A stretch of DNA of 64,000 nt from Halichondria panicea (Eukaryota; Porifera; Demospongiae; Suberitida; Halichondriidae). The notes beneath the pieces were generated by a model. The model was not told where the DNA came from. It saw nothing but the letters and a program-made list of their open reading frames with translations, and did not search any database. Numbering within the stretch: position 1 is the first letter of the stretch; every line of letters starts with the position of its first letter. The stretch is taken from positions 4,791,442 through 4,855,441 of the forward strand of contig NC_087379.1 in NCBI RefSeq assembly GCF_963675165.1, written 5' to 3'. The position numbers and the translations under genes are program-made. This document shows positions 1 to 64,000 of the stretch, piece after piece.

Positions 1-1010
1 CTTGCCAGAATATCTAGACCTATATTATAACTAGTCCAAACTCTACTACTCAGCATGAGACACTCGTTATTGTGCATGCCCTTAAACCGCTAATCAATTA
101 AGCCATGGTCTGTTGGGTGCACGTTTTGAAGAGACTATAGGTTGCAAGTAGTCTAGTACCACCGATTAAAAGTGGCAGGTTTGGAGCTATAATTATATAC
201 TATAGCTACACTGAAACGGATTTATTTACTGTGTTGAGGAGATGGGGGAGCAGCTTCATCGCCTTTATAATATCCCCCTCTCAGGACCATGCATGGTTGA
301 TCTTTGTCTGGTGCCTTGATCAGCTTTAGATGTACGAATTGGCATTCGATAATAACAAGGCATCCACAATGCACGAAATCACGATTGACAGCCTGGAATG
401 TTACTGTTTGATCTATCTCACTTCCATGTATGAGAAAATGATCAGATCATGAAGTTGCATCTACATGTATGGTTGTGCCATTGATTGGGTTGCAATATAA
501 ATTATAAATGCACTAATAAGACGTTCTAAGATTATGTAAATTATAGCTGTTGACATATCGAATTAATTTGGACAAATTAAATCACATGCATGGTCAACAA
601 AAGTAGCACTACAATAAAATGAGTCATATTAGTTATATCTAGCTATTGCCCAATAAAGCAAACCTGTGCAATTGTTATTGTGGGAACACGTATCACACTT
701 CTTCAATGACCATTGAGAAGGCAATCAGGCATAACCTTATACAGGCATCAATAGACTCTTGTTTTACAAAGTCGTAACTGATGTCAGCACACACCTATAC
801 CAGACCCACTGCTTGAATATGTCAACTTGTATTCAGTTGTGACAAATACTTAACCTCCTACTTTGTTCTCGAATAAAACACAGTGCCTATTGAGGTCACG
901 TAGCATCACGTTGTGGTAAGTTAATCTTTATAATTATGACTTGTCAGTACCAATGTGTAGGTGGACACTACAGTACAATTATTATAACTAGGAGCATGCA
1001 GAGCATGTTT
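1..1010. other. Non-coding flank, left end of duplicated unit A
   Basis: AT-rich sequence with no convincing exon on either strand. Positions 1 to about 985 match 45028 to about 46010 almost base for base with small indels, so this is the left visible end of the large duplication. Short frames here lack splice context or domain similarity. Whether the duplication extends left of position 1 cannot be seen. Confidence 0.7.
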
Positions 1011-1821
1011 GGGGCGAGCGAGCAATTTTGTATTTGTTGTACAGTCATTTGGTACAATGTGGTAATTTTAAGTTATATGAAATGAACAGTGATTGTGAAT
1101 AACCGAGTAGTCCATGTAGATACGACTTTCCTGTGCCAGCTGTATACCCGGCCGTGACAATTATTCTGTCAGAGTGGTGTAGGGCTGTTGTCTTTGACTG
1201 TGCATGGTGTAACATGAAGTTGACTTACTAAGAGTGAAACATCTATGAGTGAAAGTTCAGCACGAAAGAGCTGGCTGTACAAACTAAGCAAGGAGATATT
1301 ATCACTTTTTGCTGGACCCAAATTACAAGGCTATAGTATACTGTCAGTGTATAAACAATCCTTAAAGCTACTCTTGACCTGTTGTAAGCGTGCCTGTGTG
1401 GCCTCAGAAGTTTCCATCTGAGCTGCTCTGACCTGTCCTAGTGACTGGCCTCGATCTCTGTTTTGTCCTGTTGAGCTAGCAGGTTTATTATCACAAAAAC
1501 ACAAGACTTGGAAGTGAAACATGGCAAGTATGCTGCTGTGACCTCCTGCAGGCGTGCCTGTGTGATCTTAGGCTCAGAAGGTCCCCATCTGAGCTGCTCT
1601 GACCTGCTGTAGGCGTGCTTGTAGCCTCTGTGTCTTGTCTGAGCCTTCGTTCCTGAGTGTAGCTAGCTCTTGTGCCCATGCACAGCTTCACGTAAAAGTT
1701 GGTAAAGGGTCACGAGTACAAAAAACAAATATCGTGCCGGTCCATGACACACACACACACACACACACACAGACAAAATTGCAACGTTCATCACTAGGAA
1801 GGGACTCGCTTCGCTCGCCCC
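1011..1821 (-). mobile_element. GGGGCGAGCG-ended transposable element, decayed
   Basis: An 811-bp block begins GGGGCGAGCGAGC and ends CGCTTCGCTCGCCCC, so its ends are inverted repeats. Read on the minus strand, its first 130 bases (end sequence, a stretch around AACGTTGCAATTTTGTC, a CA/GT microsatellite, then CATGGACCGGCAC) match the left end of the element at 13239-14198. The interior (1370-1640) contains imperfect repeats whose minus-strand frames carry short motifs such as QARLQQVRAAQMETSE in different frames, which looks like decayed coiled-coil coding sequence. The matching place in unit B (about 46015-46075) lacks the element but is not a clean empty site. Class of element unknown. Confidence 0.55.
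1747..1771. repeat. (CA)n microsatellite
   Basis: About 12 uninterrupted CA units inside the GGGGCGAGCG-ended element. The related element at 13239 has a (TATG)n tract at the same place. Confidence 0.9.
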
Positions 1822-2295
1822 AATTATACAGACACAAAAACATGGTCTGGTTCACACTATGGTTCGGAGGAGTGCCTATAGTGGTCCATTAATTATGTTA
1901 ATACTAAATCAACAGTGAAACATAACATGCATACTGGGTGTGCATGTTCATTTTGAGACACATGCATGCATGCAGAACACCATGGATGCTACATACTCAC
2001 ATGAAGGCTCATACCCTGCCAGTAAAAATTGCATGGAGGCTAAAACATGCAGCACTGTACAACTGGATTCTGAACCATATTAAAAGGATCATGTGAAACT
2101 AAAGTCCCAAATGGAACACATAATAATTATGATTATAGCTAACATGCAGTCTGCATGGTTATTGTTGGCACATTTAATTAGACAAGTATGTGTACATGTA
2201 ATTATACAGCAGTATAACGAATTCGAACATTTTTCGATTCACAGTAAAAAATTATGGATTAAAATACAATGTAAAGATCAATTAAATAGAATCAG
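1822..2295. other. Non-coding 3' flank of gene 1
   Basis: No exon seen. The stretch matches about 46070-46559 in unit B. It contains the 3' flank, and probably the 3' UTR, of the minus-strand gene ending at 2296; no canonical AATAAA was found close to the stop on the minus strand. Confidence 0.6.
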
Positions 2296-5200
2296 TTAAA
2301 TTTGTTTAAATTGTGCATAGAATCCTCTGAACGATCCTGGGGAAGACACCTGCAGAGTCACGGTCAAGATATTTCCTGTCCCTGTGACTGTGTACTCGCC
2401 ACACTTCTCCCCACACATCTTCTCAATCAATGGAGCACTAGTTCCAAATCCATCATACACCGAAACAGAATTAGACGAACATTGCTCACTGCTGGGAATA
2501 TCGAAATAAGTGAACATGACTTTGAATGTTCCAGCACCGAAAATTATCCAATTGCATTCAGGATTTATGGTGCCAGGGAGGATAGGGCCTAAGGGCAAAT
2601 TAGTTGGTCCGAACGTGTCATTAACGTTCATGAATCCACCACAAGCGAACTTTCCCGGAGGGTTGGATGGTAAAACAGGGCAATTCGGAGTGGGTGGTGG
2701 TAGCGTAGTGGGGGCGAGGGTGGTTGGAGGTGTAGTCGTGGTAGGACGAGTGGTAGGTCTAATAGTTGGACCTGGTGTTACCGTGGCTACTGTAGTTGGC
2801 CTGGTGGTGGGCGGGGGAGTGGTTGGATTTGGTGATGTTGTGGCTACTGTAGTTGGCCTGGTGGTGGGTATGGGAGTGGTTGGATATGGTGTTGTTGTGG
2901 ATACTGTAGTTGGCCTGGTGGTGGGCGGGGGAGTGGTTGGACAGACTATCGTGTACTCAATCCTGAATCCCTTACGCTTAGGGCCGTGTATTGGTCCAGC
3001 AAAGAAGTATAGTCTGGTATTGCCTGTTGTAGTGATGGGAGAAGGTCTAGCAAGGTCACAAATGGTGTGATTCAATTTCTCGTATATTTTCAGGTAATCT
3101 TTGGGGCAATTTTGAGAAGATTTTCCTGCTATTCCAAATGCATTAATATCAAAGCTCAATTCAACACTGCAGTCTGTCGATGGTACCTGGATGTCCCATT
3201 GACACTCGAAATTTACAGGGTAGGTCTCGGGCCAGGATGGGGTTTGGATGCTACCAGCGGCAGCAGTTGACAATCCTCCACACAACAAGATAGTTTTAGG
3301 ATCAGTGATGTCTTCTATAGTCTCAGTTACGATCGTTTCAGGCTCAATTACAAACCATCCATCGCTGTTGTCTGCACATGCACTCATCGATATCTGCAGA
3401 CAAACAAAAAGAGTGAACACAAAGCATGTACACGTAGAAGATCTGAAAGCTTGTATAGTATATTTTAGTAATGTGCTTTGCTACAACTACGTAGGAAAAC
3501 TAAACACACCTTCGCAAGTAAGTCCATTATCTGCCAATTTGTATCCCTTGGAACAGTTGCATTCGTACGACCCTGGAACGTTTGTGCACAAATGTTGACA
3601 GCCTCCATTTCTTGTGAGGCACTCGTTCACCTCATCACAAGACACCCTGTCTGATGAGAGGTAGTACCCCTTAGGGCATAAACATCTCGCCGTATCAACG
3701 TCACCAGAGACAACCTCACAGGAATGCTCACAATTGGCAATCAAACAAGGGTCCATGGTATCATCTATGTGAGAAACAATTCTGTCATATAAATATATTA
3801 TAGGTATAACGAACGACTGTTCGACTAACAGTGTGTCTATGAAAACTAAACGCACCTTCGCAAGTAAGTCCATTATCTGCCAATTTGTATCCCTTGGAAC
3901 AGCTGCATTCGTACGACCCTGGAACGTTTGTGCACAAATCTTGACAGCCTCCATTTCTTGTGAGGCACTCATTCACCTCATCACAAGACACCCTGTTAGA
4001 TGAGAGGTCGTACCCCTTAGGGCATAAACATCTCGCCGTATCAACGTCACCAGGGACAACCTCACAGGAATGCTCACAATTGGCAATCAAACAAGGGTCA
4101 ACGGTATCATCAGCGTCTACGTGAGAAACAAGTTATTTCATTATTTCTGCCATTAAATATTATAGGTATAACGACTGTTTGACTAAAAATTCTGTCAGTG
4201 TGTCTATGAAAATTAAAAGCACCTTCACAAGTAAATCCATTATCTGCCAATTTGTACCCCTTGATACAGCTGCATTCGTACGACCCTGGAATATTTGTGC
4301 AGAAATGTTGACAGCCTCCATTTCTTGCGAGGCACTCGTTCTCCTCATCACAAGACACCCTATCTGATGAGAGGTCGTACCCCTTAGGGCATAAACATCT
4401 GGCCGTAAGAACGTCACCAGGGACAACTACACAGGAATGCTCGCATTTGGTAATCAAACAAGGGTCCATGGTTCCATCAGCATCTGAGAAACAATTAATT
4501 TATATCACGACTGTTTGGTTTAGAATCCCTAGCACTAAAGGAATATGTAGAGGAATAAGCTAGCCTTGTGCAAATAATTATGCATACATGTACATACCTA
4601 CAACACATGTTTTCCCATCAGAGAGTAGCCTGTAGCCATCCTCACACACACAGTGGAAAGAGCCGCCTTTATTTATACACTTGTGATCACAGCCCCCTTT
4701 GTCCAGGGCACATTCATTCACATCTACACGGAAGAGAAAAATAAATATAGGTATACATGTATGATTTTGTATCGACATACTTACCAAAACATTGCTTGTG
4801 GTCACTGGATAAGAAGAATCCTTTAGGGCAGTGACATTCGTATGACCCAGGAAAGTTTGTACAGTTGTGAGAACAGTATGCACCATACGCACACTCATCG
4901 AAATCTTCAGACTCAAACGTTAAATTAAATCCTTTCAAGCCAGCCCTCTGATTTGAGCTATCAGTGTGGAATCGAATGTACGCAATATTGGTAGTCGTAT
5001 AGGTGTTAATAATTCGATCCGATGATTGACAATACTTTCCGATACCGTATCCATTTCGGTTAAAGTTCTCGTGAATATGTAAGTAGTCATTTACACAGCC
5101 TTGGCTGTAAAGGGTGAAAATGAATAATCATGAATCACTCTATGTCAATAGTACATAACATCAGCATGAGGGGATAAATACGTAAATGCTATACACCTAT

Positions 5201-6768
5201 ATACTAACATACATCAATTTATTATTCTTACTTGTAGTCCATATCCAGTTCTACTGTGAACCTTATTCGATACCCCTCTTCAACTCTGATTGTCCACTCG
5301 CAGTCAGTATCGTGTGAGTAGACGCCATATTCTGGTGAGCTGAAGGAGCCACTCGAGACACCATCGAAGACACTGCCACATGCAAACTCGTGAGGTGGAA
5401 GGGTTGGCTCGGACACTATCTCATCTGGCACAAAGGTCGTTCTTGGGGGGTGGTCTTCAGTAGAATCTAAGATGGGAATAAGTAACATGATACGTCATTT
5501 TAATCGGTCTATGCATGCAGAAACTTAACTATCATAGCACTAAAAGCATGCATAAAATAACATCTGCTGGCTGTGAAATGGCTTTAAACTGTCATTTTAA
5601 GATCCTTACTTGAGCATTTACAGAAGAGGTTGGCTCTAAGGATATCCAGAGAACTCAAAGTATGGGCTTCTCCAACTGGTATACTTGGATCAAGTGCAAC
5701 TATCGTATCCAGATGAGAACTGTGTGCAAAAGAGTTTTTATTGTAATGCATAATACTGTTGTAGTCGTATCCAACTCCAAGTAAATCCACTTCATCATGA
5801 CTGAGTTTTGTGAACTGTGAGAGTACACTCCTCCCCGGTTTAAGATTATTCTCGATTATATCAATGTACTCGTCTCTGTCAGGCCTGTTGTGTTCGTGGT
5901 AGAATCCGATAACATGTCCAAGCTCATGCACTGCACTACTAAATGAAAAGCAAGACGGGCCAATTGAAACCCTCTGTTGATTGGATGTTCTGCCAACATA
6001 TGATCCACACCTAAACAATACAGATAGAAGTGATAAGCAACCAAATTCATTGTAATTTTGCTGTATCACCATTCAAATACAATCATCTCGCTATTGTTGC
6101 TAATTCACAGTTATAACCAATGTTGAATAGAGATGGTATACCAGTGCATCTATACTATATCTCACCCTGGACCAGGATAGATGAAGATGTAATTATCTTC
6201 AGTTGTCCTCTTCATAAAGCGTACGCAGGTGTGCTCCTCCCAATGCGCCAATGCCTCGGTTACGACACGCTGTTGTTTCTCTGTAATAGGTGTAAAATAT
6301 AATTAAGATTATTCATGGACGTTCGCGACTATAAAAATGTCCACACAATACACAATACCAGGTACAAATACTCACCATAATAGAATTCATCTATAATGTA
6401 AGGAATGACACAGTTGGGCCATTGCCAACTCTTGGGCTTGACAACGGCTCTCTTTTGTTTTCCCTGCGAGGACTCTTTATAACTCAGCTTCTCATTCAAT
6501 AGCTCTCGGTAGTTCTTTGTGAAGTAAGTTATATCTCCAACTTTTATTGTGAAATCTGCGCAGTGGACAGTAACATTGTTAGTGTGTGTGAAACTACTCA
6601 TCCCAATTTCTTGAACTTACCAGTGTCTACAGTTGGGTCATAAACAATTGTCCTTTCTTCAGCAATTTCATTATTTTCTCTTACATCTTCAATTTTAATT
6701 GGTAAGCACTCCACTGCATATGTAGTTGTCAAAGCAAGCAGACACATTAACAAAGCTTGATTCTTCAT
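2296..6768 (-). CDS. Gene 1: secreted astacin metalloprotease with CUB and EGF modules (11 exons)
   Basis: Predicted exons, from the start: 6768-6621, 6555-6376, 6280-6166, 6010-5610, 5466-5232, 5104-4785, 4723-4598, 4483-4223, 4116-3856, 3764-3510, 3371-2296. All have GT-AG borders, phases match throughout, and the sum is 3378 nt (1125 residues). The product starts with a signal peptide ([18 protein letters not shown]), a propeptide with VGDI resembling the family aspartate switch, and a KQKR cleavage site before the mature start. The catalytic domain has [18 protein letters not shown] and the Met-turn NSIMHY, so all zinc ligands are present. A CUB domain split over exons 5-6, eight EGF modules, and two CUB domains around a Thr/Pro-rich linker follow. 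The family comprises zinc endopeptidases acting outside the cell (tolloid/BMP-1-like architecture); substrate unknown. It is divergently paired with gene 2. Confidence 0.9.
2700..2945 (-). repeat. 57-nt minisatellite coding the Thr/Pro linker
   Basis: About three imperfect copies of a 57-nt unit encode a 19-residue Thr/Pro repeat (core [11 protein letters not shown]) between the last two CUB domains of gene 1. The linker resembles O-glycosylated mucin-type spacers. Gene 3 (about 30535-30655), gene 4 (about 36555-36640) and gene 5 (about 42010-42095) carry different copy numbers, so the spacer length varies between paralogues. Confidence 0.8.
3510..4483 (-). repeat. Tandem exon triplication, two EGF modules per exon
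   Basis: Exons 4483-4223 (261 nt), 4116-3856 (261 nt) and 3764-3510 (255 nt) of gene 1 are near copies. Each codes one module beginning DPCLI and ending in SCDE, then one beginning NECL and ending TCEG. The introns between them also share sequence (for example ATTATAGGTATAACGA), so the unit duplicated as genomic DNA. The last two copies are the most alike. All three are phase 1-1, so copy number can change without breaking the frame. Confidence 0.88.
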
Positions 6769-10003: not shown

Positions 10004-10722
10004 AAATCGTACAGGAAAACGGTGCTAGTAAGAGCAACTAGTAATTGCACGGTGCCAAGCCATAATTGGACTGGGTTTTCCGAATAACGCTGCAGCTAAG
10101 AATGCTGCAATGAAAACTGTATCATAAAAAATAATGATCGGCAATATATCCACATAGAGTATGGTCTCTCTCGTGCAATAATAGGATTCAAAACAAGCAC
10201 TGGCATGCATGATACATGGTAAATAACACTAGCTTCCTTGTGCAATCTAGATAACATATGCCATTGCCCATAATTATGGTTACACTCTTAACTTAATTAT
10301 ACTAACAAGCCAAAGTGCATGAAGGAATTATATGTCTAGACAGCAGGCTCACAGTAGTACCATGTTCCTGTTTTCCTCAATGCAGCTACCCAGGTTCATG
10401 ATATTGACGTAGCCTATTTTCCTCCCTCCCTACTCCCCCAAAATGAGTCGCCTAGCGACAGTGGAGGCGAAGACAGGAAGAAAAGGGGAGCTACCAGTGA
10501 GAATCGAAAGCTGTGGCCAAATGGAGTCGTATATTACACCTTTTCAAGCAGATTCAATGGTAACTGTGATCGTGTATTGCGTTATAACTATGCTTAGATC
10601 ATGTTTGCCATTAATACTGCAATCTGATTGGCTAAAGGAAGTGTTCTATCTAACTTAGAAAATAGCAAAAATTAGATAAATCTGATTGGCTAAATACTCA
10701 TGGTTGCTATGATCTAAAATGC

Positions 10723-10854
10723 TTAGACACTGTTTAGGAAGTTTCCACACGATTTAGAAGTCCTCAGGGCTAGTAGAACCCTCACTGCGTTTGGGATACT
10801 ACAACCAGCCCTTGGGCTTCTAAATAATGTAGAAACTTCCTAAACAGTGTCTAA
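10723..10854. repeat. 132-bp palindromic element
   Basis: Starts TTAGACACTGTTTAGGAAGT and ends with the inverse, with additional inner pairing. It lies in a 260-bp stretch (about 10605-10865) present in unit A and missing from unit B, directly after the donor of the gene 2 propeptide exon. Confidence 0.6.
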
Positions 10855-11225
10855 CTATTATTTGTACATTAACAAACCCTAGGGGCTTGTACAGTGTTGT
10901 AGTTGGGAGCATAATCTACTAAGACCATCTCAAGAACGAGTCCAAGGTTCAGTGTATGTATAGTACCTGCCAATGCTCAATTATTTGGGGCAAAGAGCCT
11001 CTCATCCCCTTGGAGTAAGAACTACAAACATGAAGCTCTAGTCTAGTGATTCCAAGAGTTGTTTGTGCCAAAAGCTCAGCTTACACACACATGCATGAAC
11101 AGAAGGAAACATGTGTTGGCTTTATTCTGTGGTTTCTATAACAGCACTTTGTTGTGCTCTTCAAAACCTCCGCTATTTGTGGGTGTAGTAGTGGAAGGAG
11201 TAGAGGTAGTCAACTGGTGAACCAC

Positions 11226-12293
11226 TATGGGGTGTTATCTGTGTCAAAATGACTATGACAATGTACACACGCGTGCATTCATATGCACGTTACAATATGC
11301 ATGTCAATATGCATATGCACGTTACAATATGCATGTCGACATCCAATATGCACGTTACAACATGTATGTCAACATGCATATACACATTTACAGTATTATG
11401 CTGCATGGGATGTCAATAATTATGACCTCCGGCAGCATAATTATATACGCTTACACCCAATAATATGCATATATATGTCCATATAATAATGATTGGTATA
11501 TAAACTGGTTGGCACACACAACATTAATTGTGGATGACTCCTCCACAAGACTCCAATTTGAGCTGGAAAAGACGCCGCAATAATTAGTTTGTTAGTAGGT
11601 GTGACATCAATTATGCATGCGGGGTAAAAATATAAGCCTACTCCACATGTACCGCCACATGTACCGACACGTGGAGAGTGGGCTTCTAAATATAATCTGC
11701 CCTCGTGGGCTACTCTCCAAATCTGGAGGCGAGAAAGATAAGGAAGAAGAAGTACCGACAGTGTATCAGACTCTAGCTAGCTAGTTATAGCTGTGATATA
11801 AATGGCTGACAAGATTACTCGCGCCAACGAGATAATATAATTTATTGTGCTAGTCCTATTATATATAATGAGCACTTGTACTTTGACCCAATGACCACAT
11901 AATCTAGACTCCACCCTTTCTGCCTACAAAATTACAGTGTAATTACTCTCAATAACCGGATACATGCATATTGTGATGTGTACGTAATGTGTAAGTATAC
12001 ATGCACATGCCATAATTATTATTGACTTGATAATTGTGTAATGTGTAGATATATATATGTCAACGTACGTGTATATGCATGTTGTAATGTATATATATAT
12101 TATGTTGACATGCATGTTGCATGCATGCATATTGTAAGGTGCTATGCATGTTGCATGTATATTGTAATGTGCATATGCATTTTGACATGTATATTGTAAC
12201 GTGCATATGCATTTTGACATGTATATTGTATGTGCATATGAATGCACAGTGTGTGCATTGTCATAGTCATTTTGACACAGATAACACCCCATA
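11226..12293. mobile_element. 1.07-kb foldback element with 6-bp target duplication
   Basis: Begins TATGGGGTGTTATCTGTGTC and ends with the inverse. AACCAC flanks both sides (11220-11225, 12294-12299). Inside each arm are tandem copies of a unit around GCATATGCACGTTACAATAT in opposite orientations. Unit B has no insert at the equivalent place (about 49996). Short frames inside come from the repeat, not from genes. Confidence 0.75.
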
Positions 12294-13292: not shown

Positions 13293-13319
13293 TGTATGTA
13301 TGTATGTATGTATGTATCC
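13293..13319. repeat. (TATG)n microsatellite
   Basis: Six or more TATG units between the terminal block and the CATGGACCGGCAC motif. Confidence 0.9.
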
Positions 13320-13401
13320 ATACGTCATGGACCGGCACAATGATTTGCTTTTGGGACTCATGATCCTTACCGACTTCCACGTCGATGTTAATAAAAATTA
13401 A

Positions 13402-50998: not shown

Positions 50999-51224
50999 AT
51001 AGTTATTGCTTTCCAATTATTAGCTGGGGATTTGTTTGGATGTTTTTGAATTCATTACTGCACTAAATATAGTGTAGATACATGTGTACTAGCTGTCATG
51101 ACCATGCGTGTCATTATAGTTATTGCTTTCAATTATTAGCTGGGGATTTGTTTGAATTCATTCATTACTGCACTAAATATAGTGTAGATACATGTGTACT
51201 AGCTGTCATGACATGCGTGTCAAT
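50999..51224. repeat. 117-bp tandem duplication in unit B
   Basis: ATAGTTATTGCTTTC to CATGCGTGTCA occurs twice in a row here and once in unit A (16858-16978). Confidence 0.8.
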
Positions 51225-52917
51225 GAATTTGGTTTGTGAGTTGGTTTGCCTGTAATCCACATAATTATATGGACAATATTACCAACTCATTGACACCTTT
51301 ATATAGAATTACGTAGCAGCTCACAACTTGTTCTGTCTATACTCCTAATCTGATGACTTGAGCGCTGTAACCCTAACAATCTGTATGACATCACACATCT
51401 TGCTGGCTCATCCTATAAACTAACCATCTCATCCAGGCACCAGTGCGTCAAGGATTACATCAAAGTGTTTAATAATCTCCATGGAAGCGGGGACGGCCAA
51501 GTGATTTGCGCCTAGCTTGTGGTAAGGAAAACCTTTCTATATATAGTCTGTCTTGTTTTTATTGTGGACAAACCCATTTGCACTCCCTCACAGTCTGCTC
51601 ACAGTAATTAGTACCTCTTCATATAACATAAACACAGCACTGATTCCCAGATGTACATGTATATAGTCATATATGGAAATAGAGCTGTAGGTTTTTCCCA
51701 TTAATTTTCTCTGGTTCTTTCACATAGAAATGCCCAGCCGCTGTATGTGTCCTACATCCCAGCTAGTAACCATTAGCACACTAGAGCCACGTACAGCCAT
51801 AGCAATGATTGTCTAAGAACGCTCATTGAAGTATAATATACAGTCTGTGTTTTGCTCTTATGAAATTACATACCATGTTTCAAATATGATTATTGATGTG
51901 GACACGTCATATAGTCGAAGAGTTGCTGGGCACTTGCAGTTGCTATGAGATACCATATTAGTATCTTTAGTGATTTTAACGACCAGCCAAAAAGTCATAT
52001 TACCTTGGCTCATTTTCCTTGCACCAGGCAGAAGATCATTCAACAGTTCCTTAGTTTCGTGGAAGTGAATACAGTTGTCATGTTTGGCTAATCTTATCAT
52101 GTATATATTGTCACACCCACCTAAGAGTAACACGATAAGTACATGCTATAATGTGTTATCCTAACCAATAGTAACTTTATACATTAGTCAAATTTGTGTT
52201 TCTAATTTATACTACCAACGGGTAAGGGTTTCCCTGGAAGCTAACATGAACACCTTGAATGCACTAATACTGAACTCTCCATGCATTTGATACGTGTCAT
52301 CGTTACATTCACACTTGCATGCACTCTCTCAGATATCGACGAGTGTGTGTATACACACTGCTCTCACAGCTGTCGCAATCTTCCCGGCTCCTACGAGTGT
52401 CGATGCCCTCGGGGCTTCTTCTTGTCTGCAGATGGACACAACTGTTTTGGTGAGCTAGCCGATTCTGTTTTGAGAGCCCTTCTTAATGGCCACCCATATC
52501 TATAACTATATGAATTTATAGACTTGTACTGGTTGTTTAGCAGCATTGCTAAACTTGATGCATTTGAACTCAAAAGGTGCTTACGTAACTACTAAGTATT
52601 CTACCATGCACAACTAGACCTATATAATTATAAAGAACTAGAATAGAGACCATCCATTTCTAGGAAGCATGACTCATTAATTCTTGCTTACATATTGCCT
52701 GCATGCATGAATGCCATTGTGTTCCACTGAGGTAACTGGCATTGCCCTACAAAGAATGTTGTGTCCCTTCCATACGTGAGGTGTGTGCATGGGATGTGGT
52801 AGCCAGTAGGCTCTATAATAATAAGTGGGTTATTAGCGTCATTACAGAGATATTTTCCAAAAAGGAATATCATGTAACAAAACAGTAACTATAATAATGA
52901 AAGCACCACAGGTGCTG

Positions 52918-53445
52918 ATGCCTCGGTGGAGATGCCAAAGCTACATAACATAAAGCTACTAATAGCTTTTACACACAAGGCATGATAAACAATTTGCATG
53001 CAAAAACTCTTAGAGTGGGTAATGATCGACCATGATTGTTGTTAAAAACGATCGATGCCAAAAGTTCATTAATGGCTGCATTAGCAGAGCCTTGCAGCTC
53101 TCTTCTCACTCTTGCAGCTACCAATAGCTAGCGTTCTAGTACAGAGCTAACTACTAAGTAGAGTAGCAACACTCGGTAAACAAGTTTGACTACGTGCTCT
53201 TCTGAAAAGGCTGCAATGGCATTCCAAGTAAGCAAAACTAGGCATAACTCGAGAACGAAGCATTATTTTGCAAATCCACGAATTAAAATCCAAGTAAACA
53301 TGACTAGAAGCCTATAGAAACTCTTACTTGCACTTGATTCATCCTTGAGCAGCTGTAGCAGTCTACACACACACACAGATACACAGACACACAGACACAC
53401 AAACACACTACCGTATACCTCGCTTGCGCATGCGCACCGAGGCAT
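52918..53445. mobile_element. ATGCCTCGGTG-ended TIR element, unit B only
   Basis: Same family as 28645-29158. It lies in the last intron of the gene 2 remnant; unit A at about 19850 reads straight through (CTATAATAATTATGCATGTA), so the insertion is specific to B. CACA/CAGA microsatellite inside. Confidence 0.72.
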
Positions 53446-53504
53446 AATTATGCATGTATACATACCTGAGGCGCGCGTGGGCGGCCACGGGTATAGTAGT
53501 CTGT

Positions 53505-53540
53505 TGGTTTGTTTGTTTGTTTGTTTGTTTGTCTGTTTGT
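53505..53540. repeat. (GTTT)n microsatellite
   Basis: About seven GTTT units followed by GTCTGTTTGTC. Confidence 0.9.
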
Positions 53541-53557
53541 CACGAGTATATCTACTC

Positions 53558-53835
53558 ACCTGGATGCCACAGCACTGCGTTTACAGCATGGATAGCCTTC
53601 ACACAACAATATCTTGGTTTAAATAGTGACAGATTGTGATGTTAAAGCTTCTTTGTCGAGCAAAAGCTAAGAAGCTTGAACAAGCTTGTGACTGGGTCTG
53701 CTTACCTGGATGCTCTAGCACTGCGTTTACAGCATGGGTAGCCTCCACATAACAAGTCAGTACTTCTAATAGTGGCAGCTTTCGGTGTTAAAGCTTCTTT
53801 GTCTAATAAAAGCGAGCAAAATGTAGCTTGAACAG
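53558..53835. repeat. About 146-bp imperfect tandem repeat
   Basis: Two copies starting ACCTGGATGC with CACTGCGTTTACAGCATGG and GTTAAAGCTTCTTTGTC in each. They belong to a unit B-only stretch (about 53450-54185) with no recognised gene. Confidence 0.7.
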
Positions 53836-54208
53836 AACTTGCACATGTGTTACTTATAACTGAAGTGATCCTGTACCAGGTCCAGAAACAATGGAACAGG
53901 GTCACTAAAGTAGAAAGCTTGCTTTAGCTGACTGGGATCCATGCAGGACCTGGAGCCATACTTCTCTGAGACTCCAGGCTTCTTTGCTGTGATCCTAATC
54001 CACAGTGCATATTATCTATAGTACTACTTGTTCTCAAATGTTTCAGCATGCCTCCAGTCTGGTTTAGTTTTATTGCTCCTGAGTTGCTGTGCAAGTCATG
54101 CATGATGATGATAACAACATCACTATATGCACTGCATTATATCAGTCTTTTGGTTTCATGTCACCAGCCGAGGGTTTGCACTTTAGTGCTCTAGTTATGA
54201 TTAATTGT

Positions 54209-54380
54209 TGTAGGGTTTGATAATAATACCTTGAGTCTTTTATATTAAGAGCAAACAGTGATAGCATAGAATATAGCAACTCGATAGCAACACAACTTTC
54301 TAGATAAGAGCACTAGTTTATCACATGATCTCTAATGATGTCATGCATAGTTCAATAGTCCAGGAGTCCGTGTCCTTACA
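54209..54380 (-). repeat. 3' LTR, copy B
   Basis: 172 bp, TGTAGGGTTTGATAATAATA to GTGTCCTTACA; one C/T difference from the copy A 3' LTR near the start. Confidence 0.92.
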
Positions 54381-54389
54381 CCTCCCCTG
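54381..54389 (-). other. Polypurine tract, copy B
   Basis: Minus-strand CAGGGGAGG directly before the 3' LTR, as in copy A. Confidence 0.72.
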
Positions 54390-57017
54390 CAAGCTCCTCA
54401 GTGAGTGTACTGACGGAGGAGCTTGACAACCATACAGGGTCAGAGTGAAGGTAGGAGGGGGCCTGCTTCGATCGTGTGGAGCGACGAGCTTGTATCGGGC
54501 GAGGGGCTTGCAGCGATGGGGAAGGAGCTTGCAGCAGTGGGGAAGGAGTTGGTGGAGGGTCAAAAGTTCCTCCAAACACTGAGGCTAGGATTCTCTTGCG
54601 TAGAAATCGCCTGTTCCGTACGGGAACCCGACCACTTTGTGTCTTCACGAAGTACCGCCTGTGGTGTCCTAGGGCAACAACTGTGCCTCCACACCCACAC
54701 ACACACACAGCTGATGTACTAGTGTGGCTCACCTGGCCTTATAGATGTCCCACATCTTGGTAGCTGGGTTTTGTATCGCCACTCGGTTTCCGATCGGAAT
54801 TTCTGTCAGTTCCTTGGCGTGCTGATTATAATATAGCTGGTCTTGCGGCCCAACGTCAGTGTGCTCGGGATCGCTTGATTGTTGCCATTCTGGTGCGAAT
54901 GATCTTCGGTGAGCTGGGAGGTGGTCTTGTACTGGTTGACCTAGTAGTTTCTGGGCCGGGGAGAGTCCATCCTTTCGTGAAGGGGTGTTCCTGTACTGCA
55001 AAAGTGATCGAGATAGCACGTTGATGGAGCGTCCTGCCCATGCAGCAGAGATTAGCTTTTTCATCGACTTAACGGTTGCTTCTGCTTTGCCATTGCTTTG
55101 GGGGTAGCGAGGGGATGATGTCTTGTGTGACACCCCCCAATCCTTGAGGAATGCTGCTAGTTTGGATGATGTGAATTGCGGTCCTTCATCGGACCATATG
55201 ACGTCCGGTATGGCTGTTCGACAGAATTGGTTTCTGAGAGCGCCAATGAGCTTTTGTGTAGTGGTGTCTTTCTTCATCTCGATGACATCAGGCCAGTCTG
55301 TTTTACAATCTACCATGATGAGGAACTGGTCGCCCCCATATGATGCAAAGTCCACTGCCAGTTGCTGAAACGGTCTGTCTGGGGTTGGTTTCGCGATCAG
55401 GGGTTCTTTGGCATGGGGTGGTAAGCGATCTTGGCAGTGACGGCATCCATCGACAAAGTGTTTGATGTCCTGGTCAATGTTGGGCCAATAGATCGTCAGA
55501 CGGGCCCGTGCCTGTGAGCGTGCTATACCCTGGTGGGCTTCATGTAGACGGCTGAGCATCGTTGTACGAAGGCTGATCGGTACGAAGAGACGGCATCCAT
55601 AGACTATAAGGTCATCGTCAATGCTGAGGTGGTGTTTAATTGCCCAAATTTTTCCATTGATTTCGGCAGGAGGTTTCTTTCGTTCGGGAAACCTGTTTGA
55701 ATGATGTTTTTGAGGCCTTGATACTCTGGGTCGTCGTTTGCGTGTCTTCGCAGCTCCTGAAGGTGTAAATTTTCTGACTCCCAAGGGTCTTCGTTAGATT
55801 CTCTAATCTGTGATAGAGATGGGGCTTCTTCAAAGTGGAGGTCATGCTCTGCGAGGTCGTCTCCTGTGTCTGGCTTGTGACATGGGTGGCGGGACAGGTG
55901 CATCTGCTGCAAAATTTTGGGCACCTTTCAACCAACGAGTTGTGAAATTGTAGGCCATTAGGCGAGTTCGAAGACGTTGTAGACGAGGGTTTTCGATTTC
56001 GTCTAGGCGATGGCTGTTGAGGATGGGGACCAATGGGTTGTGGTCTGTAATGACTGTGAAGTGGTCACGTCCAGAGAGGAAAACATGGCATTTTTTGGTT
56101 GCCCAAGCGATTGCGAGGCATTCGAGTTCGATGACAGCGTACCTACTTTTGGTGTTGGTGAGGAAGCGAGATCCCGCCTGTACTGTTTTCCATTCCCCGT
56201 CAGAGCCATCTTGTTTCTGCATGAGTACAAAGCCGATCCCAAGAGTGCTCGCATCTGTGTACAGGTGTGTTTCTTTCTTTTGATCAAAGTAGGCAAGGGT
56301 GGGTGCTGTTACTAACATCTCCTTGGCATGTTGAAATGCTTGGTCGTGATCGGGTGTCCACAGGAAATCGTTGCGAGCGCTCAGTAGAGGACGGAGTGGT
56401 GCTAGTACTTCCGCTATGTTGCTCGTGCTGGCTGCCAACTGGTTCACGAGACCAAAGAAGGACCGTAGGTCTGTTCGACTGCTTGGTGTCGGGAAACGAG
56501 AAATAGCATTGGTAATGTCGTCGCTGATGGTGTATCCGTCAGGTGTTAGGATGAACCCTGCAAACAATGCTGTCGTTTGGCAGAACTTGAATTTTTCTCG
56601 ATTGAGGGAGATGCCTTTTTCTTGGCAGCGACGAAGTAACTCCCGTACATGAACGATGTGTTCTTGCTGATTACTGTCGAAGATGATAACGTCGTCAACA
56701 ATTTTGCGGAAGTTTTGCATGCCTGCTAGTGCTTCATCCATGCGTTGGTTATAGTGTTCACTGATGGAAAAAATCCCATAGGGGGCTCGCAGGTACTTAA
56801 AGCGCCCGAATGGTGTGATGAAGGTGGTGAGGTTTTGGCTCTCCTCATCAAGTGGGCACTGATGATATCCCTTGAGTGCATCTAAGACGGTAAAGAGCTT
56901 AGCCTGGGTCTGTGTTATGTCAGCGACAGCTTCTGCTGGTGTTGTGGAGGGATACCGCTCTCGTTTCGATAGGTCTACGCACATGCGTATTTTGTCGGAG
57001 TTCTTCTTTGGTGCCAC
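54381..57017 (-). pseudogene. RT, RNase H and integrase of copy B (frame-broken pol)
   Basis: The RT/RNase H frame is open from 57017 to about 55842 (TVLDALKGYHQ, IVDDVIIF, YTDASTLGIGF), where copy A is broken. One extra base near 55899 (ACAGGTGCATC against ACAGGGCATC in A) and one missing base near 55650 then break it ahead of the integrase, which is open from 55784 to 54729. The GPY/F-like tail is again in another frame after a CA/GT microsatellite. Confidence 0.87.
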
Positions 57018-58542
57018 AACAATGGGTGCGCACCAGTCGGAGCTATGATTTTTTGATCGACGAGCAAGTCGATCTCAGCTTTCAGTTTCTCTCTGTATGC
57101 CAGTGGGATGGTGCGTGGTGTGCTCACGCAGAACGGTTTAGCGTCGTCAGTGATGGAGATATGGAACTGTTCTCCTGGCATGGTACGAATTTGTCCGTCG
57201 AAGACGGGTGAAAATTCCAACATGAATTGTTCCGCTGTGGGTAGCATAGATGGAACATTCGTAGATTCGATTGTTTCGACTTTCGTGGATTCGATTGTTT
57301 CGACCTTCGTGGATCCGATTGTTTCGGTAGATTCGATTGTCGTAGATTCGATCGTTTGGACAGAGGGCATCGGGTTAGGGTAACAGTTAGGTAGGATGCC
57401 GAGTTTCTGTGCTGTGGCCCATGATATGATGGTGCCTGAGACTGATTGATAGATGTGAATGTCTGCTTCGGTGTCCTGGCCATTGATCTGGAATTGGACT
57501 CCGGGTAGCTTTCCTGCTGGATGTAATAGTGAGCCGTTGACTGCTTTTGGTGTGACGTTGGAATCTGCCAGATTATCCATGTCCTCGTTGAGGGCATGTA
57601 CTAAGTCTGGCCCTGCTGCGCAAATGTCTGCTCCCGAGTCAGGAAGGACACTAGTGTAAGTTTCTCCATGGCAGGTAGTCACTTTCATTCGAATCGTCGG
57701 GGCTGGTGTGATGGATCCAGCGTTTGCGTTGGATAGTTGCAGGAATGGGAGTTCCGAAGTGCGCAGTGTGTTGGCCCTCGGGGATATGGCTGGTTTTTTT
57801 CCAGAAGGATGTGGCTGTCTGCAAACCGTACTAAAGTGGCCAACTTTGCCACAGTTGCGGCAAGTTTGTCCCTGGGCTGGGCAATTCTTTCTGCCTCCAT
57901 CGTGTTGATTTTTACCGCACCAATGGCATGTACTGGCCGGGGTGGCAGGTTGATGTCGTGTTTGTCGTGTTTGTAGTGCGCAAAGTTCGGTTGCACCCTG
58001 GATCTGTGAGCGGGACTTCTTTACCGCTTCCATACCACGGCACTTTGTTACAGCTTGATCTAGCGTGAGGTCACTAGCTCGGAGGAGTTCTTGTATAGTG
58101 TCGCCATCTTGTAGACCTTCGATAATTTGGTCTCTGATTGCTCGTTTGAGGCATTCGTTGTTACAAAAGTTACAAGTTTTTGCAAGGTCACGTAGTGACA
58201 CTAGGAAGTCGTCGAAGGTTTCGCCAGTGAGTTGATGTCGCTGTCGTAGGTTTCTTCTCTCAATTGTTTCATTGATCTGCCCTTCGACATGTTGCTTCAT
58301 TGCTGCAATTATCAGTGCTTGGTCATTCTTCTGGGCATCAGTTAGTCCTAGATTGTCTACCACAGTGAGGGTCTCTCTTGAGAAACAAAGTTTGAGTGCT
58401 TGTACCTGTTTTGCCGCTGACTCGTTGCCAAGGCCAGATAGTTCTCTATAGGCAAGCCACTGTTGTTACCAGGCAAGGAAGTCTGTCCCTTTATCTGTAT
58501 CGAGGTCCAGTTTCGGTAGGTCACTGGTACGAAATGTATATG
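56975..58542 (-). pseudogene. gag-protease of copy B (premature stop)
   Basis: Gag starts at 58542 as in copy A but has a TAA where copy A has a Gln codon (minus strand CTGGTAACAAC, about 58468-58470). Downstream the frame 58363-56975 is open through the zinc knuckles, the LPDSGAD protease motif and the TIEST repeats to the shared break before RT. Confidence 0.85.
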
Positions 58543-58596
58543 CCATATCTGCTGATCCTGATTTTGTTTCGGTTCTTTCAACGCTATTTATGTAGC

Positions 58597-58614
58597 GGGC
58601 TGTTCACAGCGCCA
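58597..58614 (-). other. tRNA primer-binding site, copy B
   Basis: Minus-strand TGGCGCTGTGAACAGCCC; one base differs from copy A. Confidence 0.62.
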
Positions 58615-58785
58615 TGTAGGTTTGATAATAACACCTTGAGTCTTTTATATTAAGAGCAAACAGTGATAGCATAGAATATAGCAACTCGATAGCAACACAA
58701 CTTTCTAGATAAGAGCACTAGTTTATCACATGATCTCTAATGATGTCATGCATAGTTCAATAGTCCAGGAGTCCGTGTCCTTACA
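58615..58785 (-). repeat. 5' LTR, copy B
   Basis: 171 bp, TGTAGGTTTGATAATAACAC to GTGTCCTTACA, then ATTGT. Confidence 0.92.
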
Positions 58786-59293
58786 ATTGTCACAGTACAT
58801 GAGCTTATCTCTTTACACAGACATGAACGAGTGTGCTCATAAATGTGTCAACACGGGAGGTTCCTTTAGTTGTGGGTGTCGCCCTGGTCGCATCTAATTG
58901 GAGATATAGGACGAGGTTACTCTGCTAGCCTCGATTACAGGCCTTTCAAAATACATTGTTTTGGAATCAAGGCTAGGTGGCTACATTTTTACTAGGATAC
59001 CACATAATAAAGTCAACGCAACAGTCCCTACTTTTAGAGGTCAGAAAATTGTCTAATTGGAGAATCACTAAAAATACGGTCTGTAACTCTTTCAAGAAGT
59101 AGTTCAAATTCAATCATCTATCAGCACTCTCTGAACAATTTTTGCTAACTCTTAAAAGGTTGCAATGGTATTCCAATTAGTAAGCACAACTCTGTGGCAT
59201 AGCCAAGATTTTTGGAAAATTTGGTTGGGACGTGCTCTCTTAGATTGATGCTAGTGCAATCTGGAGAGTCCATTGTTATAACAATGATAAGTA

Positions 59294-59696
59294 CTGTATT
59301 TACTTGATTAAACGCCTAGGCGTTTATTTCCTAGCAGCGTCTGTAGAGGGGGCGTTTAAACGAGATGGGCGCTTATTCGAAACGGGCATATTGTTTTGTC
59401 TACTTCAAACTCTTGCTCATCAGCAGTTATTACTCTTCTTGGCTGCTGCCACAGCTCTCAGCTTCAATCTCAAGTCGTAGGAGTGATGTTTCTCCCTCTG
59501 TGTCCTCTCTGCCATCATAAATAGTATCTATTTATTCTATGCTGCCCTTGTTTCAGCTGGTTCCACGTGCTAATTCAGCTCCACCCACAGTGCCACGCCC
59601 ATACAGGGGCGATTATTTAAGAGGGGCGTTTATTGACAAAAGACAGCTTTACTGTGGGCGTTTAAACGAGATGGGCATTTAATCAAGTAAATACGG
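59294..59696. mobile_element. 403-bp MITE, TA target, unit B copy
   Basis: Collinear with 24996-25398; the left end is CTGTATTTACTTG (one C/T change). Confidence 0.78.
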
Positions 59697-59948
59697 TATG
59701 TACTTTGTTAATGAGCAATTACATAATTATTGTACAACAAATTAAGTGGAGTAAACTAATAGTATGACTGATCAGCAAAAAAATAATTGTAGGCGACGAG
59801 GGTGATGGAGCAAACTCATGTGTAACTTTTTGCACTGGAATTTGAACTGTTGGCATCCCTCATGCATTCAGCACCAAGACTCCAAGCTATGCAGCAATGT
59901 AACTAGAATTCACATACATGATTGTATAGTTATCAGCAGAGAGTAGTA

Positions 59949-60181
59949 CAGTACACCCTCGCTATTCCGGCTCTCTGAAGTATGGCCACCTCGATATACC
60001 GGCCATTTGGTTTTTGGTACGGATTGCTAGCTAGATGTTTACTGCACACAAAATTAGTCATTAGATTCGAGGTAAGGTCGTTTTTTAGCCGCAGCTATTT
60101 CTAAAATACAGCCACCTCGCTATTCCAGCCAAGCTGCACTGTCCCAAGGGTGACCGGATTAATTAACGAGAGTCTATACTG
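59949..60181. mobile_element. Pogo-like MITE, unit B copy
   Basis: Collinear with 25651-25883, same 233-bp length and TA flanks. Confidence 0.7.
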
Positions 60182-60462
60182 TAGCTGTAGTGTACCATAA
60201 TTATAGGCTCACCTTGACCTTGTTTGTCTCTTGGTGCATGGTATATAGTCTGACAAAAAGGTATCTACAGATTGCAGAAGGGCGATTGGCTTAGTATTAA
60301 ACTATCCATAGAATTATCTTTTTAAGTGTGAGGCTCTAGTCATGCACAATAGATCTTACGTGGTCCTATAAAGCCATATGATCCTCCAGATCCTGGCAAC
60401 GATATAATTGGTCCACCCTTGCAATAAACGGTCCCCCCTGAGAAACTATAGCCAATGAGAGT

Positions 60463-61160
60463 CAAGGGCGTAGGGAGGGGCAGGGCTTTGGGGGCTGGAG
60501 CCCCCCCTTCCTCTGCAAAAACCACACTAAGAGCCCCACCTTCTCTGATGACTGTCTTCAGCCTGGGAATTACTGGTATAGATTAGTGGCAGACAAACAG
60601 CATGTCCAAGAGCTATATAGCTCTATACTATACTAGTAACTTTGATTCTTCAGTGTAACTATTAAAGCTAGCTAGCTATTAGTAGTATAGCATGCACCAT
60701 TTAATTGAAGCATGCGCAGGTGTGCTATTTCTTGCACATGCGTAATGCACTGTGCAACTGATCAATAATCTACCACAGAGGTTGATTGAGAGCAGCAACT
60801 ATGTCGCAGAAACATTATTTCTCAAGCGTGAGTCAAGGCCAAGCTCTAGTACTGCCAGCCTGAGTACTGATGAAAAGCCAGCAAAGTAACTGATCAGCTA
60901 CATTATCATATACATTGTACATGTAGTTAGCACTGTAAATATTAGCATTGTTTCATACATATTAATTGTTATTACAAGTACAACAAAATTGTAACATCAT
61001 AAATCATTACAAGTACAACCAGACACTCTTGGTACAACAACTATTCTCGGAAATGAGTCATTAATTAGGAGGTGTGGTTTCCGCTCTCCGCGCCAAGTGG
61101 AAGGTGCTTCACACCCTTTCAGCTCAGCCCCCCTTCCTCAAATTCCTGCCTACGCCCCTG
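60463..61160 (+). mobile_element. hAT-like derivative, unit B copy
   Basis: Collinear with 26167-26887 but shorter: TGGACC and a further block are missing after the ATG at about 60801, so the short frame reads MSQKHYFSSVSQG. AGAGT flanks are kept. Confidence 0.6.
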
Positions 61161-61438
61161 AGAGTAGGCTGTAGCAAGCTATAGCACGCGCTATAGCTAG
61201 GCTGCTTGCATGCACATCAATAAATCTTACGTGGCCCCACCCACATTTCTTTGCAAATATTATGTATGCCTACGCTGCTGCAACTAGAGAACGGAGAACG
61301 AAGCACTACTTTGAAAGTCTTACTTGCACTTCAATACTCATTGAGCAGCTATAGATAGCAGTCTAGACAGACACATACGCTACACAAACGCACCGTACCG
61401 TCTATCTCGCTTGCGCATGTCGAGGCATAACTACAAAT

Positions 61439-63738
61439 ATGTTTCACAAGTGGATTGATACAGTAAAACAGACTTCTATACAGGTCACTACTGAAAATGG
61501 CAACAAAGAACACATAGGATGTGATCATTTCGTTAATGCTGGTGGACCCTGGGCTTCTCAACTGGCTTTGATGGCTGGAATTAGAGACCCCACTCACTCT
61601 AACAGAGTCATGCGTGCCCCCCTCCCAGTGAAACCACGGCGACGGTGTGTGTTTGTCATAAAATGCCCGGATCTCATCACTGAAGAATTCCCTATGCTTA
61701 TTAATATTGATGGCACATATTTACGAAAGGAAGGAGTACAAAACACTTTCATATGTGGAGTGAGGACCCCTGAGGTATGCACATGATAATAAAATAATTT
61801 CGTACTAGGAAAAGGGTCCAAATGCTAGAATTGTAGTTTGTTCTATCTTCTTTATAGCCCCAGAACATAATTATGCAGGAGCCATAATTATATCTAAGAC
61901 TCCAGACTTCTTAGTAATTCGACTGACAGTACAGTATAAAGATTTGGTTTTATGCTTTATGTACATGCATGTAATTGAAAATAAAGATGTACACATACGT
62001 AGAATTTCCACACCGTGTGTAGTGTTCCCCCCAGATGAGGTGCACGTACATTATTTTTCTTGCAGCACCTGGATCACGATGACCTTGAGTTAGAAGTGGA
62101 CTATTCACTGTTTGACGAGTATGCGTGGCCTAGTATTGCACACAGGGTACCGGCATTTGAATCTTTGAAGGTGGCAGTCAACATACTTTGTGTGCTTGTA
62201 CATTGTATGTAATACAGTGAGTTGAGCCCCTATCTTTGGGAGTAGACCTTCCTTGTCCATATCAGTAAAAAATTGTCCCCATTTATGAGGTTAAAAATGA
62301 TGATCACCATTTATATGCAAAAGGGTTCGAGAAGCCTCTTTTGTATAGGATCAGCCTGTGCAGTTACTAATTAATTAGCAAGCGATCGTATTTGTATAAT
62401 CAGGAGCACATTACAGTCTCGGGAATCGCATCTCATGCAAATTTGCAAAGCATGACCTCATATGCAAAACCGCTAAGTGGGTGATGATCATCAGCGTGCG
62501 TGAGCTGACGGTGCACTTTTACCAAGCATAGGTCAATAAAAATGAAAATCTACAGCTAGCTAGTTAACTATAGGCCTGGTAGTAAGCTCTCTCTTCTAAG
62601 AACCCCAGTAAGACTCCTAGTATGTGTTAGTCTAGGTCTAGCAAACTTTCTCTTTACATGGATATGCTCCTCTTTTAGAATTTTCTGTACCTCACCAATG
62701 ACAGTCTCTTCCATGATGTATACCAACATCCATCAAAGACCTAGCTATTCCCTTTAGCTCTTTTTGGCTCAACCTAGCTCTCCTGCTGCTGCACTACACA
62801 AAATCTGTTCATAATGATAATCACATGCAGGCTGACCGCGGTCTGATTTCCACACCCATGTAGAGTTAAAAGCTCCTTCTGTAATGTGCTCCTGGTATAA
62901 TGAAAGCACCGTGGGTGCTGATGCCTCGGTGGAGTTACATAACATAAAGCTAATAGCTTTTATATACACATGATGAACATTTTTGCATTAATTTTGCTAC
63001 ATGCATTCTCAAAGAGTGGGTAATGATCAACCATGATTGTTGTTAAACGATCGATGCCAAAGTTTAAATCTAAAACTAATGGCTGCATCAGCAGGCCTTT
63101 CAGCTTTCTTCTCACTCTTGCAGTTATACCAATAGTTAGCTAGCGTTCTAATGCAGAGCTATAACTACTAAGTAGAGTAGCAACACTCGGTAAACAAGTT
63201 TGGCTACGTGCTCTTCTGAAAAGGCTGCAATAGCATTCCAAGTAAGCAAATAAAGAACGAAGCATTATTTTTCAAATCCACAAATTAAAACCCAAGAAAA
63301 TATATGACTAGAAGCCTATAGAAACTCTTACTTGCACTTCATTGATCCTTGAGCAGCTGTAGCAGTCTACACAAACACACACACAGACACAGACACAAAC
63401 ACACTACCGTATACCTCGCTTGCGCATGTACACTGAGGCATAATAATTGATAATTGATAGAGCCTCTCTTTGTCTGTTTGCAGTTGCAAAGTGCTTGGGC
63501 TGGTTACTATGATTACAACACTCTGGATCAAAACGCAATTATCGGGAGGCACCCTGTCATTAATAACTTGGTATTTGCCAATGGCTTTAGTGGCCATGGC
63601 ATACAACAGTCACCAGCTGTAGGTAGAGCAGTTAGCGAGATTGTTTTAGATGGTTGTTCGCACTCTATTGATCTCAGTAGATTTTCCTTTGAAAGAGTTG
63701 TGAATGGTCAGCCATACAAAGAAAAAAACATTGTGTAA
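61439..63738 (+). CDS. FOXRED1: FOXRED1-like 3' exons, unit B copy
   Basis: Exons about 61439-61774, 62066-62170 and 63484-63738, all open and phase 0. The protein differs from the unit A copy at only a few residues (for example MAGIRDP against MTGIGDP, RRRC against RRRY, AWAGYY against AWTGYY). At each of these the B residue or the A residue can match the human protein (MAG and AWAGYY match in B; RRRY matches in A). The FAD-binding N-terminal exons are absent here too, so the truncation predates the duplication. Function as an oxidoreductase is unlikely without that half, unless an upstream exon is joined in from a distance. Confidence 0.7.
62921..63441. mobile_element. ATGCCTCGGTG-ended TIR element, unit B FOXRED1-like intron
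   Basis: Collinear with 28645-29158; the right end is CACTGAGGCAT (one base changed). Confidence 0.65.
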
Positions 63739-64000
63739 GAGAGATTTTTTTTATACATATTCTTACGCCAAACTTCATTCAGATGTGTCTTTAATTTTTG
63801 TGTGTAATCTTCACCCTAACGGTTTGAATTGGGAATGGAAGTAGTTGAACAATGCTGAGTGGACATAATTAAAGGATTTCGAATGCGAGGCTCTCGAATT
63901 GTGACATGATTGTGACATCATTATAGATCGCAAACGAAACACACGCAAAGAGCTATAGTGATGATACACACTGTATCCTTGCTGTTTACGTGACGTGCTA
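63739..64000. other. 3' flank of FOXRED1-like copy B
   Basis: Non-coding; matches 29456 to about 29720. Homology with unit A continues to the window edge, so the duplication may go further. Confidence 0.65.

Follow-up and report, generated by a model that had tools for sequence, protein, structure and literature searches.

A 64,000-nucleotide window of the genome of the sponge Halichondria panicea (assembly GCF_963675165.1; contig NC_087379.1, here C3, positions 4791442-4855441, plus strand) lies within an array of six head-to-tail units of 34-49 kb each, 245.6 kb in total (C3:4768917-5014474), which carry tolloid-like astacin protease genes. This is very probably a true segmental array that goes back to one ancestral duplication and was grown by unequal exchange to about six units. 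The array is ordinary in kind and its breakpoints are well resolved; the exact number of units rests on the assembly. The sequence examined comprises 291 kb, i.e. the window and its fetched surroundings on C3; the whole genome has 39 contigs and 131,455,214 bases. Unless a contig is named, positions follow the numbering of the window (C3 position = relative position + 4791441). A first-pass annotation of the window had described two collinear copies, A (1-29720) and B (45028-64000), and had proposed either a genuine segmental duplication that is being pruned or two haplotypes joined in tandem by the assembler.

Units, edges and seams of the array

All units have the same, plus-strand orientation: V1 extends from -22524 to 24589 (47.1 kb; it starts at C3:4768917, 22,525 bases before window base 1, and its window part is 1-24589), V2 from 24590 to 58887 (34.3 kb, complete in the window), V3 from 58888 to 96105 (37.2 kb, of which the window holds 58888-64000), V4 from 96106 to 133840 (37.7 kb), V5 from 133841 to 183178 (49.3 kb) and V6 from 183179 to 223033 (39.9 kb). 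The five inner seams (J12, J23, J34, J45 and J56) lie at the identical base, with limits of +/- 2 bp since GT is common to both sides, and when all seams are compared with both edges of the array, the left one at -22524 and the right one at 223033, the edges too fall at phase 24589/24590. When chained, the 15 pairs of units are 90.9 to 97.1% identical across 20.0 to 36.5 kb. In the tiles from -50 to -10 and from 200 to 241 kb, the sequence that lies beyond about -22.5 and 223.0 kb shows nothing but repeats of 500 bp or less. A 2,018-bp piece of the left flank has one full-length match besides 40 short matches to dispersed repeats (40 of the 1,364 first-look candidates were scored), and a 2,300-bp piece of the right flank, taken from about 1 kb past the edge, matches once at full length; its other matches are a local repeat of 76% and six stretches shorter than 70 bp. 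Head-to-tail units, a common breakpoint and unduplicated flanks are what is expected of a true tandem array.

The left edge falls in an intron of a gene for a flavin adenine dinucleotide (FAD)-dependent oxidoreductase, which we take to be FOXRED1-like, and the right edge in an EGF exon of a tolloid-like astacin gene. The unduplicated left flank contains, on the plus strand, an exon with the FAD motif GGGGIMG and two further FAD-dependent oxidoreductase exons; the first of these N-terminal exons matches the Pfam family DAO with E 3.6e-6 (27.2 bits vs a cut-off of 27.9), the second with E 0.003, and the third matches no family. The C-terminal exon (DAO, 5.2e-10, 39.8 bits, above the Pfam cut-off) is of a kind found inside every unit. 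Genome-wide, the second N-terminal exon has a single match (C3:4767653-4768081), and the C-terminal exon matches once in each of the six units and nowhere else. A DAO domain with its N-terminal FAD motif is present in the left-edge copy, the first exon being just below the Pfam cut-off, and is missing from the five inner copies, as the N-terminal exon is single in the genome.

The break at the right edge lies inside the open frame 222911-223201, which holds an EGF exon of g2, a plus-strand gene with the order astacin-CUB-CUB-EGF. Here the cut exon continues, and further EGF-like exons, recognised by eye, are located in the unduplicated right flank. At all five inner seams one and the same hybrid exon is found, ending in ...CGCRPG-RI-stop. 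In J12 it occupies 24523-24598 on the plus strand and consists of the EGF2 remnant of the tolloid-like gene and FOXRED1-like intron sequence (the start is approximate, inferred from the phase-1 acceptor of V6); in J23 the same hybrid occupies 58821-58896 on the plus strand, again with an approximate start. The EGF introns are in phase 1, the FOXRED1-like introns in phase 0, and a stop follows each seam. These features are the grounds for rejecting a candidate in-frame tolloid-FOXRED1 fusion made by regular splicing from EGF1 to exon 4, and because of them fusion proteins are predicted to be absent.

The collinearity of A and B is far beyond chance. A self-comparison of the window, used for all identities between A and B, gives 98.26% over 9,851 bp for 19890-29716 vs 54189-64000, in agreement with the almost identical right half that had been claimed, 98.7% over 1,050 bp for 18806-19855 vs 51850-52898 and 94.4% over 999 bp for 1-978 vs 45028-46013, with shorter collinear blocks of about 76 to 97% in between. 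The limits drawn for the two copies have to be abandoned. The seams of the window are at 24589/24590 and 58887/58888, the near-identical right half crosses a seam, and V2 consists of the right part of A and the left part of B. The spacing of 45 kb holds for the left end (45,027) but not across the near-identical right part, where the offset is 34,299. The presumed start of B (45028-46013, plus strand) has homologues at 1-978 and in four other places and is no seam; the phase of window base 1 recurs in the tiling at 0, 45.0, 74.5, 116.9, 163.8 and 208.7 kb, and there is likewise no seam within 44800-45300, where a test with spanning reads had been suggested. Position 64000, the presumed end of B, is only the edge of the window, and V3 runs on to 96105. 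A probe from the right half also matches several other places in the 4.77-4.98 Mb region of C3; the strongest of these matches (99%, at 4975527) exceeds that to copy B (97%). Of the 27 tiles of 500 bp in the left part of B (45028-58887), 26 are matched; the nearest unit is V4 for 24 of them and that of A for none.

Origin of the array and competing readings

We propose that the array goes back to one duplication, in which a point in the EGF exon of the plus-strand tolloid-like gene would have been joined to a point in the FOXRED1-like intron. The 2 bp shared at the join are as left by end-joining or template switching, either of which may have been the repair route. Unequal exchange between homologous units would then have been the driver that brought their number to about six; the nearest-neighbour pattern among the units is a mosaic in 500-bp tiles.

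Part of this history may be read from a 4.6-kb element that precedes the seam by about 100 bp in J12, J23, J45 and J56 (4 out of 5 seams) and which we take to be of the Ty3/gypsy type judging from its reading frames. The J12 copy (19910-24487, minus strand) has long terminal repeats (LTRs) of 172 and 171 bp and the target duplication ATTGT, and the J23 copy (54209-58785, minus strand) is the same insertion. ATTGT target duplications are seen for the J12, J23 and J45 copies, and the site is empty at J34 and at the right edge. The LTR pair differs by one mismatch and one gap in J12, by the same in J23 and by one gap in J45, and in J56 the 3' LTR is shortened (86% match). A loss of 21 bp from the EGF2 remnant is likewise common to the four element-bearing seams. 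As J34 and the right edge have the empty site and do not have the 21-bp loss, the element most likely entered after the first duplication and was then amplified with its seam, i.e. it would have entered one seam, together with the deletion in the remnant exon, and both would have reached the present four from there.

In this reading the units hold whole astacin-CUB-EGF-CUB genes, and the two cut genes are complete only at the edges, once each, their inner copies being truncated passengers of which a part is already broken. FOXRED1-like exons 4-6 are intact in V1 and still open in V2, V3 and V6; in V4, exon 4 contains a 2-base gap and exon 6 a stop, and exon 6 of V5 contains a 4-base gap. With so few changes no claim of neutral drift is made, and the argument here uses only the stop and the frame-breaking gaps of V4 and V5. 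The g2 catalytic exon is open in V6 and V5, interrupted in V3 and V1, and deleted in V2 and V4. Open catalytic exons are found in 15 of the 20 expected minus-strand copies (18 are present) vs 1 of the 5 truncated g2 copies (Fisher p 0.040), a contrast that is only suggestive, given that the units share ancestry and that it was chosen after seeing the data. These figures come from a recount on both sides of the zinc site, used instead of a downstream-only count to the Met-turn (3 of 22 sites broken; 16/20 vs 1/5, p 0.023). The ratio of nonsynonymous to synonymous substitution (dN/dS) over all frames had too much noise to tell genes that are kept from those that decay. The benefit of the array, if any, may lie in the dosage of the minus-strand proteases.

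It is necessary to ask how much of the array the assembler could have made. A tandem join of the two haplotypes of a single locus, with A and B as alleles, would agree with the fact that divergent alleles can combine high identity with many indels, and false duplications on one scaffold are among the cases that PMC9516828 documents. However, one gene end is single and the other is present six times, with the same seam base five times, which argues against a haplotype join because joining two alleles would duplicate both gene ends or neither. There are six units in place of two copies, each flank piece has one full-length match, the oxidoreductase exons go from one to six between the N- and the C-terminal side, the base-exact seams lie in two different genes, and the left part of B is nearest to V4 and not to the unit of A. 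There is also no gap at the join: the letter N does not occur in the 291 kb around the array, although a misjoin need not leave one and a gapless misjoin is compatible with this. In its main form the haplotype join has next to no probability, and a partial artefact is possible at the level of a dimer. No more credible is a plain segmental duplication into two copies, of which B then lost blocks; this describes the exon-removing blocks of B correctly but leaves out the further units that the contig, if correct, has to the left and to the right. The genuine duplication under pruning thus stands in so far as the duplication is real and has suffered losses, but it is a six-unit array with exchange between the units and not one pair.

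The dimer deserves more attention. The array could be real and inflated, V3L-V4 (about 75 kb) being the other allele of V1L-V2, with about four units per chromosome; we consider this unlikely, though worth keeping in mind. Along large parts of V1L-V2 and V3L-V4 the identity is about 97-99.8%, as it could be between alleles (V2-V4 has a mean of 97.1% with stretches of 99.8%, V1L-V3L about 98%), the commonest tile partners are V3 for V1 (30 of 85 matched tiles) and V4 for V2 (37 of 64), and the duplication of a dimer and a misjoin give the same sequence picture. On the other hand, the right halves of V1 and V3 are only about 95% identical where chained, the gypsy-type element is present at the seam after V1 and the seam after V3 is empty, and the partners vary in the remaining tiles. 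The high identity of the two dimers nevertheless weighs against a true array of about six units, the reading that we prefer, and so do the partnership of B's left part with V4, which is steady (24/26) and not mosaic, the fact that copy number and every seam are taken from the assembly alone, the partial decay of the FOXRED1-like copies and the suggestive nature of the catalytic-exon contrast.

Within a true array the hybrid seams might themselves be new genes under selection, for a fusion or for a secreted protease in truncated form, and their amplification might have been what the array served. The two parent genes have the same orientation, every hybrid exon supplies a stop, and V5 retains an open catalytic exon upstream of its seam; even so we regard such genes as improbable, as there is no in-frame splice from EGF1 to FOXRED1-like exon 4 and the g2 catalytic exon is interrupted or deleted in V1 to V4. 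A related and still doubtful idea is that the seam could serve as a ready-made terminator, so that the duplication would have produced a separate gene for a short secreted isoform of the protease, the array being retained for the dosage of proteases. The stop two codons past the junction in the EGF2 exon would shorten the astacin-CUB-EGF-string protease, and V5 is the sole inner g2 copy with an open catalytic exon.

Protease genes, losses and insertions

BMP1/tolloid-like astacins process procollagen or antagonists of BMP. In the exons scanned, the units of the array carry the Pfam families Astacin (PF01400), CUB and EGF, and the best solved relatives are TLL1 and BMP1. The scans were made exon by exon, with some exons assigned by eye or DNA similarity, and the genes are known from genomic sequence alone. 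The catalytic domain has the zinc motif HExxHxxGFxHE and the SIMHY Met-turn, and CUB and EGF modules come after it. In V1, g1 (2296-6072, minus strand) comprises a CUB-Thr/Pro-CUB tail (2296-3480), EGF exons (3788-4499), a CUB/EGF part (4717-5127) and the astacin exon (5587-6072); Pfam matches support 2296-3477, 4113-4499, 4717-5127 and 5587-6072, the stretch 3788-4132 was assigned as a DNA repeat of the next exon, and the zinc motif by its pattern. The g2 copy of V1 (10358-19458, plus strand), which is cut at the seam, has a presumed pro-region (10358-10594, no Pfam match), an astacin part (12516-12635), the interrupted catalytic exon (15356-15724) and an EGF exon (19201-19458). In V2, g3 (30082-31154, minus strand) is a CUB-Thr/Pro-CUB tail recognised by similarity to the scanned tails; it is probably broken because the tail is split across two overlapping frames, and the motif pattern found no astacin motif between g3 and g4. 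The other two genes of V2 are both on the minus strand: g4 (36108-39328) has a CUB tail (36108-37121) and an EGF-like part (37393-37614), both assigned by DNA similarity or by eye, and an astacin exon (38825-39328), and g5 (41566-44243) has a CUB tail (41566-42531), an EGF-like part found by eye (42593-43003) and astacin exons at 43601-44044 and 44112-44243. Tandem repeats of 57 bp are present at 2783-2941, 30521-30670 and 40726-40842, the first two in frames for the Thr/Pro-rich CUB linker, and the length of this linker may vary between copies.

The FOXRED1-like 3' exons inside the window, all on the plus strand and in units without the N-terminal exons, are at 27204-29455 in V2 (27204-27494, 27790-27894, 29201-29455) and at 61484-63738 in V3 (61484-61774, 62066-62170, 63484-63738).

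The pattern HExxHxxGFxHE occurs at 22 sites in the array (V1 4, V2 2, V3 4, V4 2, V5 5, V6 5). Around the site 17 are free of stops and 5 are interrupted (V1 at -2134 and 15529, V3 at 88272, V5 at 148380, V6 at 191741). A DNA search with one CUB exon gave 56 matches, 55 of them on C3 between 4775804 and 5002424 and one on contig C2; the Astacin family search gave 98, with strong ones beyond the array on contigs C2, C5, C13 and C15. A tree of 29 rows, i.e. 21 from the array (one broken copy was excluded) and 8 chosen elsewhere, groups the array copies by place in the unit and not by unit, with 13 of 26 inner branches below 80 support. This grouping suggests that the genes diverged first and that the block was multiplied later. 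The g4 class joins a gene of contig C2, meaning that the array genes need not form one clade. V5 and V6 each have two g4-type astacin exons 8-10 kb apart (148380/156754 and 191741/201650), one interrupted in each unit, which points to an extra duplication inside the unit. The g1 of V6 (213748) has two residues missing from the conserved ExxRxDRD motif and reads NRPDEY. As to the rest of the genome, contig C1 has a cox1-like nuclear fragment with two in-frame TGA codons (C1:5280527-5280718), the sole COX1 match of the search and likely a mitochondrial insertion.

The left half of B had been said to have lost exons in large blocks. Measured against V1 and V6, three gaps do remove protease exons: one of about 4.0 kb between 46743 and 46744, which takes most of g1 including the astacin exon, one of about 1.4 kb between 50691 and 50703, which takes the catalytic and first CUB exons of g2, and one of about 0.9 kb between 51116 and 51511, which takes the second CUB exon and is accompanied in B by a local duplication of 110-bp units. 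All three are shared with V4, the alignment of V4 with V2 running through them, and the sequence is kept in V1, V3, V5 and V6. What remains of g2 in B is a first astacin exon (50259-50375, plus strand; C3:4841700-4841816), found by the Astacin family search. A further loss of about 0.57 kb at 51850-51858 is not found in V1, V3, V4 or V6.

The other gaps between A and B have a different explanation. The 0.84-kb segment 979-1821 is present only in V1, and the foldback-type segment 11229-12293 and one of about 2.2 kb (12690-14933) only in V1 and V3, and this distribution makes insertions in the lineage of A the likeliest source. At 11226-12293, about 0.8 kb is enclosed by inverted repeats (about 155 bp, 89%), each of which contains tandem repeats of 32 bp. 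The 2.2-kb segment contains an open frame of 225 aa (13402-14076, plus strand) without a Pfam match at 0.001, which we presume to resemble an OB-fold/RPA-type protein and which is perhaps part of a mobile element. The "unequal decay" of the first-pass annotation is correct for the deletions shared by B and V4, but it mixes in the insertions in A and the divergence of two lineages of units.

Relation to known systems

A suspected assembly error is here replaced by a history of the array at the level of single bases. The same reasoning provides a cheap, assembly-only test of real vs false tandem duplication, as edges that cut genes leave the cut-off exons single and the rest multiplied. The astacin gene count of the genome is affected too: 22 catalytic sites, 5 of them interrupted, are in one block.

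The Thr/Pro-rich linker that joins the last two CUBs in the minus-strand genes, and the EGF string into which g2 continues at the right edge, are departures from canonical BMP1. In the astacin domain, the HExxHxxGFxHE motif, the SIMHY Met-turn and the use of CUB and EGF modules, the sponge genes resemble the BMP1/tolloid-like proteins as outlined in PMC9848320.

False heterotype duplications are common in assemblies and can make chimeric genes, and the cases described in the relevant part of PMC9516828 have gaps and haploid depth. The sponge array resembles them in its near-identical neighbouring copies and, as in some of them, its chimeric exons; it differs in that it is free of N and that its breakpoints leave an asymmetry of exon copies, 1 against 6.

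In word searches of titles and abstracts, no publication appears to describe the array. The nearest described case is, as far as the account in PMC3395120 goes, the Sdic cluster of Drosophila melanogaster, in which tandem chimeras are flanked by the intact parents, one at each end, and a retroelement accompanies each repeat. The two systems have in common that material of two neighbouring genes is used, that the intact parents stand at the ends, that a retroelement is located by the repeats and that the unit count is unsettled: for Sdic it is given as four or eight, since a higher-order duplication would look alike (PMC3395120). The differences concern what is multiplied. The Sdic units, as characterised there, are chimeric genes with new testis-specific promoter elements, whereas the sponge units carry several whole protease genes, and the chimera is confined to the seam, where no in-frame fusion product is expected.

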